Origin: an archaeon
GTDB lineage: Archaea; Nanobdellota; Nanobdellia; SCGC-AAA011-G17; PNOQ01
Length of the DNA stretch: 40,874 bases
NCBI GenBank assembly: GCA_018671245.1
Contig: JABHIB010000011.1
Coordinates: 1-40,874, forward strand
Reading direction: 5' to 3'
This document shows, piece after piece, positions 2 through 40,874 of the stretch. A program made the translations under genes and the position numbers. Each line of letters opens with the position of its first letter. Positions within the stretch are counted from its first letter, which is position 1. The notes below the pieces were generated by a model. That model searched no databases, was not told where the DNA came from, and saw only the letters and a list, made by a program, of their open reading frames with translations.

Positions 2-1063
2 AAGAGGTTATTATGTTTAGTTTTAGTGTTTCTTATAATTGGTATGTCTTTTGGTTATTCTTCTGATATTTTATTTAGTAATGTTGAAGTTCCTAGAGTT
101 AGTGTTGAAAAAGATTCTGAAAGAGTTTCTTCTGAAGGTTTGACTCGTTATGTTCGAGGTTTAAATGGATTAGTTGCATCGGTTAAGGATTCAGAGATTA
201 AATATTATCACTCTGATAGGATTCAGAGTAATCGATTAGTAACTGATTCTTCAGGTTCTGTTGAGAATGAATTTAAGTCATTGCCTTTTGGACAGAAGGT
301 TTTTAATTCTGGCGTCAAGTATGCTTTTGCAACTGGAAAGGAATTGGATGAATCTGATTTGTATTATTTTGGAGCTAGATATTATGATTCTAATTTGGGT
401 AGATTTACTAGTGTTGATCCATTTCCTTCTGAACCTGCTTATCAATATGTTAATAATAATCCAACGAATATGGTTGATTCTAGTGGACGATTTGCTATTG
501 CTATTCCTGCCATAGGCTTGGGAGAAGCAGTTATTTTAACAGCTGCAGTTTTAACAGCTACAGCTACCCTAATTCAAACTGGTAGTGCGGAAGCTGCTGC
601 TGAAAAATTTGAGGAAACATTTGTTGAACCTAATAAAATATTATTTGAAAATTTAGTCAATGCTCCTAAATTAGATGCTACTAATGTAGTTCCACTAATC
701 CTTATTAATATTCTAACAAAAAAAGGTTCAGAAGAAGATTCAACAACAGGTCCGGAAGAGAGTTCGGATTCTAATCCGATTAATAAGTGGTTAGATGAGA
801 TACTTGAAGATCATAAACGTGAACTTGGTGAAACTGGGACTCCTAATGATCCTGAAGAAGATCCAGATTTTGATCCGGATGGATCTAGAAGAAGTTCAGA
901 CGAAGATATACCTAAAAGGTTGTCTGATGAGTATGATTTAGATAAGGCTCAAAGAGGGAGACTTCGTGACCTTATGCATAAACAAAAGGGTCCAGGACAA
1001 AACCATTTACCTGAGCAGACTATAAGGGAACTAATTATAGATAACTTATTACCTCCATCTTAA
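2..1063 (+). CDS. Miniature secreted Rhs-core protein, copy 1 (5' end truncated by window edge); RHS-associated core, hydrophobic segment, acidic linker and unique C-terminal tail
   Basis: Core reads YYHSDRIQSNRLVTDSSG...LPFGQ...ATGKELDESDLYYFGARYYDSNLGRFTSVDP...YVNNNPTNMVDSSG, matching the RHS repeat-associated core pattern. The listed ORF start (GTG at 26) is internal; the same sequence at 40736 shows a true ATG start MKKRLLCLVLVFLIIGMSFGYSS. Confidence 0.85.
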   Translation, partial: KRLLCLVLVFLIIGMSFGYSSDILFSNVEVPRVSVEKDSERVSSEGLTRYVRGLNGLVASVKDSEIKYYHSDRIQSNRLVTDSSGSVENEFKSLPFGQKVFNSGVKYAFATGKELDESDLYYFGARYYDSNLGRFTSVDPFPSEPAYQYVNNNPTNMVDSSGRFAIAIPAIGLGEAVILTAAVLTATATLIQTGSAEAAAEKFEETFVEPNKILFENLVNAPKLDATNVVPLILINILTKKGSEEDSTTGPEESSDSNPINKWLDEILEDHKRELGETGTPNDPEEDPDFDPDGSRRSSDEDIPKRLSDEYDLDKAQRGRLRDLMHKQKGPGQNHLPEQTIRELIIDNLLPPS

Positions 1064-8658: not shown

Positions 8659-9756
8659 ATGAAAAAGAGAGGAGTATCTTTAGTTTTAGCATTGCTTATA
8701 ATTTGCATGCCTATAGGCTACTCTTCTGATGCATTATTTAGTAAGGTTGATGTTCCTAGAGTTGGCGTTGAAAAAGATTCTGAAAGAGTTTCTTCTGAAG
8801 GTTTGACTCGTTATGTTTATGGTTCTGACATGGTTGCATCTGTTAAGGATTCAGAGATTAAATATTATCATTCTGATAGAATTCAGAGTAATCGTTTAGT
8901 AACTGATTCTTCAGGTTCTGTTGAGAATGAGTTTAAGTCATTGCCTTTTGGACAGAAGGTTTCAAATTCTGGTGTGAGATATGCCTTTGCAACTGGAAAA
9001 GAATTGGATGAATCTGATTTGTATTATTTTGGAGCTAGATATTATGATTCAAATATTGGGAGATTTACTAGTGTTGATCCAGTTAAAGAAAATGAACCTT
9101 ATAGCTATGTTAGGAATAATCCTATGAATTTAGTTGATCCTACTGGGATGGATCCTGAAGAAGAAGAAGAAGAAACCATACCTTGCGTTCAGTGCCATGG
9201 TAGTGGTATTGATTTTGATAAAGAGTTCTCTGATGATGGCTTAGGAGAAGACTACTTAAAGAATTTTGAACATAATCTTCGTGCTATTGTTCTTGCTTAT
9301 ATTGATCTAAATGGACTTCCAAAATATTACGAGGCAGTAGGAAATAGTCCAGGTTATTGGCATTGGGGAGCTATTGGAAATAATGCATTTCTGCCAGACA
9401 AGCTTAAAAATACGGTTATCGCGCATATAAATACTGCATTTAAGATTGTTAATGATAAGAAGAGGTACAATAATTTCCATTTTGTTATTGATCCAAGATA
9501 TCCAGATTTGATTCGACAGAGTCTTGTGAGGATTAGAAATACATTTAGTCCAAGTGGGAATACGCGAATGAGTGGATTATATGTGGCGGAAGGTATTACT
9601 CTTTTGAGAGGGTTGGAACTTATGGTGACATTAGCAACCCCTGGTCTTTTTATAGTTGGAGGAGCCATATCAACAGATGCAACAATTAAGTATATGTCTG
9701 CCCAATCTCCTGAAGAAAATGCAGTTTTTATAGAGGCTATGTCTGGTAAAATGTAG
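8659..9756 (+). CDS. Miniature secreted Rhs-core protein, copy 2, unique C-terminal tail
   Basis: MKKRGVSLVLALLIICMPIGYSS signal peptide; RHS core YYHSDRIQSNRLVTDSSG...YYFGARYYDSNIGRFTSVDP...YSYVRNNPMNLVDPTG. Start set to ATG 8659 downstream of a TATA-like tttatatat. Confidence 0.88.
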   Translation: MKKRGVSLVLALLIICMPIGYSSDALFSKVDVPRVGVEKDSERVSSEGLTRYVYGSDMVASVKDSEIKYYHSDRIQSNRLVTDSSGSVENEFKSLPFGQKVSNSGVRYAFATGKELDESDLYYFGARYYDSNIGRFTSVDPVKENEPYSYVRNNPMNLVDPTGMDPEEEEEETIPCVQCHGSGIDFDKEFSDDGLGEDYLKNFEHNLRAIVLAYIDLNGLPKYYEAVGNSPGYWHWGAIGNNAFLPDKLKNTVIAHINTAFKIVNDKKRYNNFHFVIDPRYPDLIRQSLVRIRNTFSPSGNTRMSGLYVAEGITLLRGLELMVTLATPGLFIVGGAISTDATIKYMSAQSPEENAVFIEAMSGKM

Positions 9757-24810: not shown

Positions 24811-27800
24811 ATGGAAAGTAAAAAACTAATTGCAGTATTTTGTATGGTTTTGATAATCGGTTTGCCGTTTGGTTCTTTAAGTGTTGCTGCACAGGATCCA
24901 ATTAATCCTCGTAAAAGTTTAGGTGATGCTCTAAATCCTTTTGTTGATGAAGTTGATGTAGGAGAAGCAGTAATTGTTAATGTTGATGGTTATGAACCAA
25001 TAACAATCAGTTCAGATTATTTACAAAATCAAGATTTTCCAGTCTATGTTTTTTTGAAAGGTATGACTGCAGGTAGTATTCTTTTTGGAGATGATTCTGA
25101 AGAGGGTTCAGATCCTTTATTTGGTGGTATAAATATCAAACGAGTGGTCATTACTCCTGAGAATATGTCTTTGAGATTTATTAATGGTGCTCCAGTTCAT
25201 ATTCCTCCTCAAGATAGATCTTATACAGTTAGTAGTGATGGGTTAATTGATTTTGGATATATGATTGTAAATCTGAGAAAAATAAAAAATGAAAACGATC
25301 TTCCGGATAGTATTGATTTGAATATGAGTGCAAGAGTTTATTTTGATAGTGATGCAGGAATTGGAGGGTTGTTTGGTGCCCAAGATTTAAATTTAAAACC
25401 TTATTCTGATGAAAGTGATTGGCTTGAAGATCCTAGTGCTCAGGCTAAAAGTAGTTTTTGGAGTGGAAAAGGATATATTAGAACTACAAGTATTGGTGAT
25501 GATTATGTGACAGTTTCTATTTATGATGGAATGCGTAGAAATGTAGTTTCCAATTTAAAATTAAATCTTAATTCAGAACCTTCGGCCTTTACTCTCCCTG
25601 GATTTTCTTCGCTTTTTGGTGAAAAATCTAGAATTGATTTGAAGGCTATAAATGGTGCTCAAGATTCTGTAAATCTTTTGATTAAAACAAGTGTTAACTC
25701 TGATCCTTATGAAACAACTTTAGTAAAGGGTATGCGTATTTTCCCAGGTAGTGAATGGACTATTTATAGTGTTAATGGAGATAGTGTAGTGATCTCTGAT
25801 AATAGTGGAAATAAAAGGGAGTTAATTTATGGTACTGGTGATATTGTAGCCGATCAATGTAAGGATTTTGTCACAGTTTCAGATTCAGATCTTTCAGATT
25901 CTTCTATACCTAGTGCAAAAATGAGACATTATTGTACTGCTATATCTGAGGCAAAAAGTGCATTAGGTTATGCATTAAGTGCTCAGCCTTCTAGCGAAAA
26001 TACTGAACTTCTTAAAGAGATTTATGGTCATTTGTATAAGTATTATAATGAAATTGGAGATTATGCTAATGCTTTAGAAAATCTTCAGAAAAAAGAGAGT
26101 TTAGAATTTACTACAATTGGCCAAAATGAAATTAGTGCCTTATTCAATTCTCTTGATTCTGATGGGAAAACAATTCCATTAGATAGTGGAGCCTCAATTA
26201 CTTTACTTAAGATAAATCAAATGGAAGAGGTCGCTAGTGCTAAGGCAAAGGTTGGAGATTCTTTAGATTATGTTGAAATTAATGTTCATGATCCTTTAAT
26301 TCATGGAATCAGAGAGGGAGATAGGACTTATGATTGGGTTGTTAGTAGTTTAAGTGAAGATAGAATAATGATTAGAAAGCATTATGATGATGGTGAGTGG
26401 GCCGATTCTTTTTCATTAGATGAAGGATATAATAATGTTTATGGTACATCTGTAACTATAAAAGATGTTGATACAAAACAATCTGCATTATTAAGTATTC
26501 TCCCAGGTTCTGGTAGGGCTTTTAGTGAATCTAATTTCATGGTTCATTTACCTATTGAAAAACGAGCTATTCAGTGGGTTCCTGAAGAGATTGATAAGAA
26601 AATTAATTCTACTACTTCAACAATAGCAAAATTGGAAAGTTCAATAGATAACTTAGAATCTTTAGTTAAGGGTTGGAAGATAGCCTGTTTAAGTGTGTTT
26701 ACTTTTTTAACTGTTAAAAATTCATTTTTTGGTAATCCTATTGCTAGGCAGTTGGTTATGAGAGATTGGAAAGAGACTTGCAAACAGAAATATGTTGGTG
26801 GACAGTATTCTAGTGTTGATGAATGTTTGGAGTTTAATAGTGAAATTATAGAAGATCAAATTGATAATTCTGGTGATGCTGTTGATGTTGTAAATGATGT
26901 TATGAAGGATTTTAAAGACTTTGATGATAGTGATTCTAGATCTGCTATTTCGAATGCAATTGGTAATGATTTGAATGAATCACAAATTAGGTTGTTAGTT
27001 GAATATGGTGGTTTTGATTTAGAAGATGCACGAAATATGATTTATTTGAAAAATTTTAATGATACTGTTTATAATACTAGATTAATTGAGGTTGGAGAAG
27101 ATCTTGATCTTTATTCTGATATTGATGTGGGATTAAGTTCTATAACTGATGAAGATGCGAAAAGATTATATGTTTTCTCAAAGTTTCATGAAACTAGTAT
27201 GACTGATCTTCGTACTTATGGTGAATCTGCTGATGCATGGGCTATTGAATATCTTGAAGGGGAGTATGGTGCATCTGCTGTGTCTGGAGTTTATAGGGTT
27301 GAAGAAGCTACTAGAGATACTAGTACATCTTCGGGAATTGAATTTTATACATATTATAATGGTAATAAAAGAAGTGGATTAAGTATGGTTATGGATGATG
27401 AACAACTTCCTATTTCTGTGGGTGGTAAGTCTGTTTTCAAAGATAATGATGATAAACTTTATTTAGTGAATCGTGGATCTATGTTTGGTAATGAATACAG
27501 TCGCGATTTCTTTCCGAAACCAAAGATTGAATACACTGAATCTGGAAAACCTTGGATAATTCCTATGAAATTAAGGTCAGGTTTATTCGAACATTCTGAA
27601 TATGCAAATTATGTTCTTGTTGGATTTGATTCTAGTGGTAATCCTGATTCTTATCAAATCTGGAATGTGGGTAGTGATGGGAAAGCTGATGTGTATAAGG
27701 CAAATTATGAAGAGAGTGATGATGTTCTAGTTATGCATGAGAGTATTTTAGAATCTAATCCTAGTGTTCTCGGAACTGTAACTAGAACATATTCTACTGC

Positions 27801-30003
27801 TAATGTTAAAGTGCAAGAAGGTAAAAAAGTTCCAGGTACAGATTATGCTGCTAGTTATGCCGCTTCAAAAATTCAAGAGACTTCTCTTGAGTGTATGGAT
27901 TTTATGAGTAAGGGAGATTGCGATTTATTGTTCGGTGTTTGTGATCCTGTTATGTGTCCTGTATCTAGATTTGATCTTGGAGGGCATTGGAAAGTGGATA
28001 GTGTTGTCCAAACTGGGATTGTAGGAAGTGTATTTTTAGGATTACATAATTTTGGTATCAAGGAACCTTTACCAGTTTGTTTGACTGGTATACTTGCTGG
28101 CCTTCAGAATATCAAGACTCTTTATCAAGGTTATAATGAGTGTTTGAATACTGCTAAAGTTAGTGGAGAATCTGTAGGTATTTGCAATACTATCAGATCT
28201 GTTTATGTTTGTGAAATGTTGTGGAGGGAGGCAATAGCATTATTCAGCGTTCATGGGAAAATTTTAAGTTTTGTTTCAGAAAAAATATTTGGTAAGAGTG
28301 ATGGTGGTGGAGAGTATATGGCTTGGCAATCTAGTTGGAAGAATCTTGAAAACTCTGTTACTTTCTTCACAAGCGATTATGCTCAAAGTGCGTTTGCTTC
28401 ATATAGTTCAAGAAGTACAGAAGAACTAGGTAATGAAGTTTGTAAATCTGCAATATTTGCAAAAGCTCCAGGTGTTGGAGATTTCTTTTCTCAGTTAACA
28501 AAACCAGAAAGCCCTCCTCAATTTACTGCATGGTTTGATGAATTAGATTATACTAGTTCAGAAAAAGTAGGATTTTTAGATAAACAATCCTTGTATAGAA
28601 TTTATTATCATATCTATGCTGGTGAGACTCAAGAATTACAATATACAGTCTATTTGAAAGGACCAAATCTCTATAATCTTGTAGTGACTGATCCTGAGAA
28701 AAAGATGAATCGAGCTTATTTGAAAGCTGGTGAATTCGCAGACAAAAGTTTCACAGTTAGTGGGAATAGTGGATATAATGAAGTGTGTGTAGAATATAAT
28801 GGAATTACTAAATGTGGCTTTGGGAAGACTACTAGTGCATTTTCATTGAATTATTTGAATGATATGATTGTTAGGGATGAAGTTAATAGGCAGATAGATA
28901 GTGCTGATATGTGTATTCCTGATTCTCCTAGGGTTGGTCCTAGTTTGGGTAGCTTGATTACTCCTTCAAATTATGGATTGCTTAGAACTGGAATAGTTAG
29001 GGTTTGTTCTGTCACAGATCCTGATGATAATAGTGGTAGTGATAAATGGGAAGTAGTTGGGAGTTGCGGTATGGATAGTGTTGGAAGGTCTCTAGGATAT
29101 TGTTGGTTAGATTCTTCTACATTTCAACTTAATGATGTTATTGATAGGGAAGAAATATTGGCCCAGGTAAGTTCGGATTATGTTGCAGACATTAGTACAC
29201 AGGCAGGAATGTTATCTGCAAATGAAGCGAATGTTATGATTGATAATAATGCAAATACTAATTCACTGAATGAGTATATTCACAATTTAAGAGAAATTAT
29301 GAAATACTCCAATGATAATCATATAAAAGCAAGAGGACATACTCTTATTTCTTGGAAGTATTTTTCTGAAGGTTTGAAAATTACTGGACCTGCATCACCT
29401 AGTAATGATCTAAATTGTATCGTAGAATATGATTTTGATATCGGTTGGTTCAGTGGCGATACTTTAATTAAATCTCAACATTCTATTGTTGCTAATAATC
29501 TTGATTTTAGTTGTGAGTCCGGATCTTGGTTTGTTAGATGGGATAGTTTATTTGATAGTGGAAACTGGCATAATTTGGCAAGCTTATCTGAATGTGGTGG
29601 CGATGAAAATTCTGCAAATAGATGGTTTTCTGTTAGTGATAATAATTTTTTAGAAATGTTGAAATGCAGGTATAGGTTGATTCTTCCTACAAGCGGCGCA
29701 CATTCGAGTTTGTTCCAAGATGATAAAGATGATCTTCCTTTTGTATTTAATACATTAATTCCTCAAATGTCTTATGCGACTGATTGTGATGAAGGTATTA
29801 AAATTTTAGTTAATTTGGCAAGAGAGGGTCCGGGTAATGATGATGAACTTCATGTTATTGTAGGTAATGATAAGAAGACTTTTAGTAGTGGCGATTTACA
29901 AGACCGGACTGAAAGAACATCTGATGATATATATAATTTATGTACTGGTTTGACCTCACCTAATGATGGTTATTTTGTTCTTCCACCTTATGGTCCATTT
30001 TGA
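24811..30003 (+). CDS. Giant (1730 aa) secreted/membrane protein with signal peptide
   Basis: MESKKLIAVFCMVLIIGLPFGSLSVAAQDP signal peptide; uninterrupted ORF, Cys-containing ectodomain, short helical-repeat-like stretch (ALENLQKKESLEF). Confidence 0.8.
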   Translation: MESKKLIAVFCMVLIIGLPFGSLSVAAQDPINPRKSLGDALNPFVDEVDVGEAVIVNVDGYEPITISSDYLQNQDFPVYVFLKGMTAGSILFGDDSEEGSDPLFGGINIKRVVITPENMSLRFINGAPVHIPPQDRSYTVSSDGLIDFGYMIVNLRKIKNENDLPDSIDLNMSARVYFDSDAGIGGLFGAQDLNLKPYSDESDWLEDPSAQAKSSFWSGKGYIRTTSIGDDYVTVSIYDGMRRNVVSNLKLNLNSEPSAFTLPGFSSLFGEKSRIDLKAINGAQDSVNLLIKTSVNSDPYETTLVKGMRIFPGSEWTIYSVNGDSVVISDNSGNKRELIYGTGDIVADQCKDFVTVSDSDLSDSSIPSAKMRHYCTAISEAKSALGYALSAQPSSENTELLKEIYGHLYKYYNEIGDYANALENLQKKESLEFTTIGQNEISALFNSLDSDGKTIPLDSGASITLLKINQMEEVASAKAKVGDSLDYVEINVHDPLIHGIREGDRTYDWVVSSLSEDRIMIRKHYDDGEWADSFSLDEGYNNVYGTSVTIKDVDTKQSALLSILPGSGRAFSESNFMVHLPIEKRAIQWVPEEIDKKINSTTSTIAKLESSIDNLESLVKGWKIACLSVFTFLTVKNSFFGNPIARQLVMRDWKETCKQKYVGGQYSSVDECLEFNSEIIEDQIDNSGDAVDVVNDVMKDFKDFDDSDSRSAISNAIGNDLNESQIRLLVEYGGFDLEDARNMIYLKNFNDTVYNTRLIEVGEDLDLYSDIDVGLSSITDEDAKRLYVFSKFHETSMTDLRTYGESADAWAIEYLEGEYGASAVSGVYRVEEATRDTSTSSGIEFYTYYNGNKRSGLSMVMDDEQLPISVGGKSVFKDNDDKLYLVNRGSMFGNEYSRDFFPKPKIEYTESGKPWIIPMKLRSGLFEHSEYANYVLVGFDSSGNPDSYQIWNVGSDGKADVYKANYEESDDVLVMHESILESNPSVLGTVTRTYSTANVKVQEGKKVPGTDYAASYAASKIQETSLECMDFMSKGDCDLLFGVCDPVMCPVSRFDLGGHWKVDSVVQTGIVGSVFLGLHNFGIKEPLPVCLTGILAGLQNIKTLYQGYNECLNTAKVSGESVGICNTIRSVYVCEMLWREAIALFSVHGKILSFVSEKIFGKSDGGGEYMAWQSSWKNLENSVTFFTSDYAQSAFASYSSRSTEELGNEVCKSAIFAKAPGVGDFFSQLTKPESPPQFTAWFDELDYTSSEKVGFLDKQSLYRIYYHIYAGETQELQYTVYLKGPNLYNLVVTDPEKKMNRAYLKAGEFADKSFTVSGNSGYNEVCVEYNGITKCGFGKTTSAFSLNYLNDMIVRDEVNRQIDSADMCIPDSPRVGPSLGSLITPSNYGLLRTGIVRVCSVTDPDDNSGSDKWEVVGSCGMDSVGRSLGYCWLDSSTFQLNDVIDREEILAQVSSDYVADISTQAGMLSANEANVMIDNNANTNSLNEYIHNLREIMKYSNDNHIKARGHTLISWKYFSEGLKITGPASPSNDLNCIVEYDFDIGWFSGDTLIKSQHSIVANNLDFSCESGSWFVRWDSLFDSGNWHNLASLSECGGDENSANRWFSVSDNNFLEMLKCRYRLILPTSGAHSSLFQDDKDDLPFVFNTLIPQMSYATDCDEGIKILVNLAREGPGNDDELHVIVGNDKKTFSSGDLQDRTERTSDDIYNLCTGLTSPNDGYFVLPPYGPF

Positions 30004-32092: not shown

Positions 32093-33253
32093 ATGAAAAT
32101 GGGTGTGATATCTTTAGTTTTAGCATTGCTTATAATTAGTATGCCTGCAGGTTATTCTTCTGATGCTTTATTTAGTAAGATTGATGTTCCTAAAGTTAGT
32201 GTTGAAAAAGATTCTGAAAGAGTTTCTTCTGAAGGTTTGACTCGTTATGTTTATGGTGCTGGTTTGGTTGCTTCTGTTAAGGATTCAGAGATTAATTATT
32301 ATCACTCTGATAGGATTCAGAGTAATCGATTAGTAACTGATTCTTCAGGTGTTGGTGCTGTTGAGAGAGAATTCAAATCATTACCTTTTGGACAGGAAAT
32401 TTCTAATTCTGGAGTGAAGTATGCCTTTGCAACTGGAAAGGAATTGGATGAATCCGAGTTGTATTATTTTGGAGCTAGATATTATGATTCTAATTTAGGT
32501 AGGTTTACTTCTGTTGATCCGGTTAAAGAAAATGAACCTTATAGTTATGTTAGAAATAACCCTATGAATATGATTGATCCTAGTGGTATGGATGAAATGT
32601 CTTGGGTTGATGAAGATGTATTTAATAGTGTTGATGAGAATTATGGGTCAATCATTTCTGAAGTTGGATCTCAGTTAAGTCTTACTGATGGCCAGATTGC
32701 TGGAATATTTGGGTCTATATATTCTGAACAATTGAGAAGAGATAGTGGAGGAATAAAAGAAACAAGCAAAAAATATCTTCGAAGTGTTATGGGATTTATG
32801 GGATTTGAAGATGATTTAAAAAGAACAAATAAATATGGGGCTGGTCCTGGACATATACATAGGGATGCTGCACTTGATGTATGGAATTATTACTCTTCAC
32901 ATAAGGATATGTTTCCGAAAGATTATATAGATAAACCTTCTAAGTCTTTAGAGAACATTGATAGTGCCGAACAAAATATAAAATATATGGGAATTTTATT
33001 TATTAAATTTGTTAGAGATTGGAATACTATAGGTGCTGATATTTCAAATCGTCCAGGAGTATTATCTACTTTTTATAATCAAGGTTATGGGTCGAAAGGA
33101 ATTAGTGAGAGGGAATTAATCCCTGGTGGAGTTGATATTCAAGGAGTGGGATTTGGTGTTCATTCAGCTAATGCAGGAAGACAATTTAATGATAATGTAT
33201 TTTTTGAAACTAATATAGTGGAGCCATTTTTATTATCGGTAATGTTTGAGTAG
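32093..33253 (+). CDS. Miniature secreted Rhs-core protein, copy 3, with putative lysozyme/transglycosylase-like C-terminal domain
   Basis: Signal peptide MKMGVISLVLALLIISMPAGYSS; RHS core ...YYFGARYYDSNLGRFTSVDPVKENEPYSYVRNNPMNMIDPSG; tail contains AGPGHIHRDAALDVW ... ENIDSAEQNIKYMGILFIKFVRDW...DISNRPGVLSTFYNQG. Confidence 0.85.
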   Translation: MKMGVISLVLALLIISMPAGYSSDALFSKIDVPKVSVEKDSERVSSEGLTRYVYGAGLVASVKDSEINYYHSDRIQSNRLVTDSSGVGAVEREFKSLPFGQEISNSGVKYAFATGKELDESELYYFGARYYDSNLGRFTSVDPVKENEPYSYVRNNPMNMIDPSGMDEMSWVDEDVFNSVDENYGSIISEVGSQLSLTDGQIAGIFGSIYSEQLRRDSGGIKETSKKYLRSVMGFMGFEDDLKRTNKYGAGPGHIHRDAALDVWNYYSSHKDMFPKDYIDKPSKSLENIDSAEQNIKYMGILFIKFVRDWNTIGADISNRPGVLSTFYNQGYGSKGISERELIPGGVDIQGVGFGVHSANAGRQFNDNVFFETNIVEPFLLSVMFE

Positions 33254-40735: not shown

Positions 40736-40874
40736 ATGAAAAAGAGGTTATTATGTTTAGTTTTAGTGTTTCTTATAATTGGTATGTCTTTTGGTTATTC
40801 TTCTGATATTTTATTTAGTAATGTTGAAGTTCCTAGAGTTAGTGTTGAAAAAGATTCTGAAAGAGTTTCTTCTG
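40736..40874 (+). CDS. Miniature secreted Rhs-core protein, copy 4 (5' fragment, truncated by window end)
   Basis: ATG at 40736, MKKRLLCLVLVFLIIGMSFGYSSDILFSNVEVPRVSVEKDSERVSS; bases 40741-40874 identical to 1-134. Confidence 0.85.
   Translation, partial: MKKRLLCLVLVFLIIGMSFGYSSDILFSNVEVPRVSVEKDSERVSS

Follow-up and report, generated by a model that had tools for sequence, protein, structure and literature searches.

A candidate murein-cutting tail on a short Rhs protein of a DPANN-type archaeon

In the genome of a DPANN-type archaeon we identified what is probably a secreted polymorphic-toxin cassette, an Rhs protein whose C-terminal tail is likely to cleave bacterial peptidoglycan. The protein, referred to here as Rhs copy 3, is encoded in a stretch of DNA of 40,874 nucleotides (the window; contig JABHIB010000011.1 of assembly GCA_018671245.1). 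The conserved head of the protein, consisting of a putative signal peptide and one Rhs core, would export it, and the tail may be freed by cleavage beside DPSG. With its predicted lysozyme-superfamily fold, closest to the DUF1402, SLT and Tse3 types, the tail would then use Glu212 as its general acid in cutting the MurNAc-GlcNAc backbone of bacterial peptidoglycan. The features on which this reading is built are collected in Table 1.

Table 1. Coordinates of Rhs copy 3, its parts and the other Rhs heads of the window
Feature	Position	Strand	Basis
Rhs copy 1, lacking its start at the contig edge; shares the head, has its own tail	2..1063	+	genome search
Rhs copy 2; shares the head, has its own tail	8659..9756	+	genome search
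Rhs copy 3, 386-aa protein, head and variable tail	32093..33253	+	intact ORF
Signal-peptide-like N terminus MKMGVISLVLALLIISMPAGYSS	32093..32161	+	by eye; other copies have the same shape
Rhs-associated core domain, residues 98-166	32384..32590	+	TIGR03696, E 1.9e-19, 70 bits, cut-off 32.5
DPSGM motif closing the head	32576..32590	+	sequence comparison of copies
Variable tail, predicted lysozyme/lytic-transglycosylase-like domain, from residue 165	32585..33250	+	profiles, alignments, alignment-guided model
Glu212 (tail Glu48), within GSIYSEQLRRD, proposed catalytic acid	32726..32728	+	invariant column in alignments A1 and A3; family profile placing it on Tse3 Glu250
GPGHI, residues 251-255, within GAGPGHIHRDAALDVW; counterpart of second SLT motif	32843..32857	+	alignment
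DISNRPGVLSTFYNQG, counterpart of DIs.RPeiLaTLYNiG, including the YN.G third motif	33038..33085	+	Pfam match, relatives, hhalign
Start of a further head, cut by contig end	40736..40874	+	genome search

Archaeal origin and the likely target

The region 3' of copy 3 carries two tRNA genes, an archaeal 16S gene, a further tRNA gene, a 23S gene and an RNase P RNA gene, and the contig is archaeal because archaeal rRNA genes lie on it. Elsewhere in the window (24811-30003), a secreted-looking protein of 1730 residues adjoins an ORF of 663 residues. Mur_ligase_M and Transpeptidase, two families of murein synthesis, were not found in the genome (615 kb, 93% complete), and bacterial controls were positive; their absence is not absolute, since the genome is incomplete to that extent. 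The preliminary description of this DNA had supposed an archaeal source that makes no murein, and both the rRNA genes and the absence of these two families agree with it. Because both families are absent, an exported murein hydrolase would act on others.

Within 400 bases downstream of copy 3 there is no ATG-started ORF of at least 60 residues, and a tRNA gene follows. Copy 3 is therefore not accompanied by the adjacent immunity gene that is typical of Rhs polymorphic toxins. The lack of a neighbouring immunity gene is what would be expected if the producer has no target for the enzyme. If the tail does cut murein, a 615-kb archaeon without murein synthesis invests coding space in an anti-bacterial enzyme, carried in a cassette built for exchange, and DPANN archaea would be linked to predation on, or competition with, bacteria.

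The same fold and the same catalysis might instead be directed at another beta-1,4-linked surface polymer, either chitin-like or a glycan of an archaeal host, and serve attachment to or invasion of that host. The superfamily includes chitinases, one of which (3w6f) is among the Foldseek matches, and PMC6642349 describes DPANN archaea as often dependent on archaeal hosts. However, the closest sequence and structure matches are peptidoglycan enzymes, and the bacterial relatives come from murein-bearing bacteria, several of them with an N-terminal membrane segment. We consider a substrate other than murein unlikely.

A short Rhs head with exchangeable tails

The Rhs head that had been attributed to copy 3 is borne out by its match to TIGR03696. 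As in Rhs polymorphic toxins, the Rhs-associated core carries a DPxG motif at its end, and a tail of 222 residues follows. The head has only about 165 residues and a single Rhs core, rather than a long shell of YD repeats that encloses the toxin. In Rhs and TcC proteins the pattern GRFxxxDP...DPxG is tied to self-processing or self-cleavage; comparison of the Rhs copies of this genome shows that nearly all retain it.

The copy 3 protein has 14 matches in the genome. About nine copies bear tails, no two of which are alike; the remaining matches are either fragments of a head or run off the end of a contig. Identity among the heads is 64-83%, and the combination of a conserved head with C-terminal domains that vary across copies is again that of Rhs polymorphic toxins. 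Related heads are present in 35 of the 371 genomes of the phylum, with several copies each in the same family and with differing tails. The tail of one such relative contains the pre-toxin domain PT-TG above cut-off, and tails of other relatives resemble transglutaminase-like and DUF4846 proteins below the cut-offs. The Rhs set thus has the anatomy of polymorphic toxins, with a head far shorter than the classical Rhs shell.

Several observations concern the integrity of these copies. Positions 1-134 of the window are identical to positions 40741-40874, and both lie inside an Rhs head. Because these terminal 134 bases match inside a head, the contig is either circular or ends at both sides in identical heads where it was cut, and heads are likewise found at several other contig ends. 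One copy (L017:1935-3083, on contig 14 of genome G000) has an in-frame TGA inside the head and is either broken or a sequencing or assembly variant. Two head fragments of 58-68 residues (L020:6131-6334 and L018:4352-4525) have neither core nor tail and are possible remnants of recombination. By eye, three further tails (L020:403-1074, L016:730-1920 and L016:6556-7227) resemble wall hydrolases, with NlpC/P60-like (DC.G), amidase-like and SleB-like features. We do not claim SleB-type or NlpC/P60-type identity for other tails of this genome, since nothing beyond weak matches came from searches with profiles and of the PDB.

It is rather improbable that these proteins are variable surface proteins, such as adhesins or decoys, with tails that vary for binding or antigenic change. 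Such a role would fit the lack of an evident immunity gene adjoining copy 3, although a murein-cutting enzyme needs no immunity where the cell has no murein. It would also fit two tails in relatives (L131 and L135) that look like beta-rich surface domains, but the PT-TG tail and the transglutaminase-like and DUF4846-like tails of other relatives are of the kind found in polymorphic toxins. The toxin reading of copy 3 may, tentatively, be extended to the whole set: ultra-small archaea might keep rapidly reshuffled short Rhs toxins that swap whole tails, part of the set serving to breach bacterial cells. It is equally tentative that these tails comprise lysozyme-like and perhaps papain-like wall hydrolases, and that the design is a minimal, cross-domain one with neither shell nor dedicated immunity.

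The lysozyme-like tail and its predicted catalytic residue

In an unselected scan, DUF1402 (PF07182) was the sole Pfam match of the tail (E 0.0033), with a score of 17 bits that lies below the curated cut-off of 27 bits. To collect relatives we used a degenerate DNA pattern for I..RP.[VI]L.T.YN.G, derived from the last motif of the tail, on 257 billion bases of prokaryote genomes. This search yielded 73 stretches (L055-L127), nearly all of which encode one protein family of Bacteroidota and Patescibacteria, and the few remaining matches are from Bacillota and Bdellovibrio-like bacteria. The family is DUF1402-like and common in Bacteroidales and Patescibacteria, and on inspection many of its members start with a hydrophobic segment. 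Pfam matches among the 19 members of the alignment (P0002 counted) are to DUF1402 in 16, SLT in two and Tse3_cat in one; relative L056 exceeds the SLT cut-off (22.3 versus 21.3 bits). The best PDB matches of the family profile are Tse3 entries (E about 0.01), which place the conserved Glu on Glu250. When the tail was compared with a profile made from bacteria only, hhalign gave 96.6% (P 6.9e-10) over tail residues 41-175, versus 0.5% and 0.1% for two other tails of the same genome used as controls. The links to Tse3 and SLT suggest that the bacterial family is itself a murein hydrolase, and murein cutting by the tail, if it occurs, would likewise hint at what this uncharacterised family of Bacteroidota and Patescibacteria does biochemically.

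No direct homologue of the tail was found in 98 relatives, the genome collection, viral contigs, plasmids or phages, and profile A1 detected none over the 371 genomes of the phylum. Searches for DUF1402 in Sinorhizobium megaplasmids and for the degenerate motif in viral contigs gave no matches, and PADLOC found nothing. A PDB search with the tail alone retrieved only cyclophilin (E 0.42), which we took as a chance match.

The motifs previously quoted for the tail are all found in the intact ORF, at the quoted places and in the quoted order. When the tail is aligned with its bacterial relatives, the invariant columns beyond the searched motif include tail Glu48 and Gly87. As in SLT/GH23-like enzymes, a Glu lies in the first sequence motif: the Glu of GSIYSEQ, which the preliminary description had singled out, aligns with a Glu that is invariant in the family, and the family profile in turn places it on Glu250 of Tse3, with moderate statistical support. 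Glu250 was identified by mutation as the catalytic residue of Tse3 (PMC3792639). The second SLT motif reads GLGQV in Tse3, GISQV in L056 and GPGHI in the copy 3 tail, where His replaces Gln. The third is represented by YNQG at residues 328-331 (nucleotides 33074-33085), within NIDSAEQNIKYMGILFIKFVRDWNTIGADISNRPGVLSTFYNQG.

This His, and the strong divergence of the tail (13-24% identity to its relatives in the alignments), would be consistent with a lysozyme-superfamily fold that has no activity, the tail being degenerate or glycan-binding. However, Glu212, Gly251, Trp310 and the YN.G motif are all retained, and the Gln of the second motif is likewise missing from the Bacteroidota relatives, so that we regard an inactive tail as very unlikely.

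Because the relatives were chosen with a pattern from the last motif, agreement in that motif is built in, and we therefore hid it. The N-terminal half of the tail, which contains the Glu, was then beaten in an anchored test by 3 of 300 shuffles and by none of 105 real decoys. In a local test 11 of 300 shuffles and 4 of 105 decoys scored as high, which is marginal, and HMMER detected no similarity of this half to the family once the motif was masked. An earlier test of this half (z 5.4) was discarded because the tail had contributed to the alignment, and the cleaner repeat was weaker. Since the hhalign result and its controls are strong and the motif-hidden tests moderate, marginal or null, membership of the tail in the lysozyme superfamily is well supported by sequence comparison and the exact placement of Glu212 is moderately supported.

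A diverged lysozyme-like tail also occurs on an Rhs protein from another genus of the same family (L134:1641-2834, minus strand, contig 26 of genome G007, one of the 371 genomes of the phylum). With an HMM E-value of 8.5e-10 and an hhalign probability of 97.4%, it too matches the family of bacterial relatives, and it keeps the Glu. This tail is without most of the motif and was not selected by the pattern; it was found only on reading the Rhs tails of that genome.

AlphaFold gave no useful model from the single tail sequence (pLDDT 33). With an alignment of 26 rows it gave a model with pLDDT 71 and pTM 0.72, best at tail residues 11-50 and 81-170 and mostly of low confidence at residues 179-222. 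The failure with the single sequence means that the good model depends on an alignment selected by the shared motif. Of the 15 best PDB matches retrieved by Foldseek with the alignment-guided model, 13 belong to phage lysins, lytic transglycosylases (among them MltC, TM 0.50) or Tse3, and the viral library returned a named endolysin at a probability of 0.99, followed by many LT_GEWL and SLT proteins. All Foldseek E-values are above 0.001 (best 0.88 in the PDB and 0.048 in the viral library). Given these E-values and the reliance of the model on the alignment, the retrievals constitute agreement with a lysozyme-like fold rather than proof of it.

The DUF1402 or lysozyme-superfamily assignment, originally made by eye, is supported by the DUF1402 and hhalign profiles, the SLT and Tse3_cat matches of the relatives, the match of the family profile to Tse3 in the PDB and the retrievals with the model. 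Neither of the outcomes named beforehand as contrary to it, a fold that is not lysozyme-like or the lack of an acidic residue, has arisen: the model retrieves lysins and transglycosylases, with weak Foldseek E-values, and Glu212 is present in the sequence. That an unrelated helical fold has converged on one short stretch, RPGVL.T.YN.G, would account for the HMMER similarity lost on masking and the failed single-sequence model, but it is highly improbable given that hhalign spans residues 41-175 with controls near zero and that the L134 tail still matches in the rest of its length. In the preferred reading, the tail is one domain, small and soluble, in which a single Glu is predicted to be catalytic, and this makes its proposed anti-bacterial role testable.

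Comparison with known systems

DUF1402 and the relatives from Bacteroidota and Patescibacteria share NI..W....DIs.RP.vL.TlYN.G with the copy 3 tail, as well as the upstream EQ and G.xG motifs. However, the bacterial proteins stand alone rather than as Rhs tails, and several appear by inspection to be membrane-anchored. The likeness to the Pseudomonas muramidase Tse3 (3wa5, 4m5e) is that the EQ of the family falls on Glu250-Gln251, that G.xG is aligned and that the model retrieves it. Tse3 is a calcium-binding protein that is delivered by the type VI secretion system and has Tsi3 as its immunity protein (PMC3792639), whereas copy 3 has a putative signal peptide and an Rhs head and lacks a neighbouring immunity gene. 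Lytic transglycosylases and goose-type lysozymes (SLT, MltC, MltE and phage LT_GEWL endolysins) resemble the tail in the fold match of the model and are bridged to it through the SLT match of L056, but the tail has no direct sequence match to them and identity is low.

Polymorphic toxins are rare in archaea (PMC3482391). Copy 3 shares with the Rhs polymorphic toxins an Rhs core with a terminal DPxG, the variable C-terminal domain that follows it and the occurrence in many copies. In contrast to them, its single-core head is too short to form a full-length Rhs shell, it is archaeal, and no immunity partner adjoins it. A survey published in mBio in 2019 reportedly covered archaeal polymorphic toxins and may already include short Rhs proteins of this type.

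Bacteria-killing peptidoglycan hydrolases have already been described from archaea and are prominent in Nanoarchaeota (PMC12352652), and murein transglycosylases have been noted in Woesearchaeota (PMC9723730). The enzymes surveyed in these two studies, neither of which mentions Rhs in its main text, are modular hydrolases with catalytic and wall-binding domains or stand-alone GH23 proteins, whereas the copy 3 domain is the tail of an Rhs protein. To the extent that this could be checked, the novelty lies in a short archaeal Rhs head that bears a DUF1402/SLT-like domain as its exchangeable tail, a combination that occurs twice in one archaeal family.
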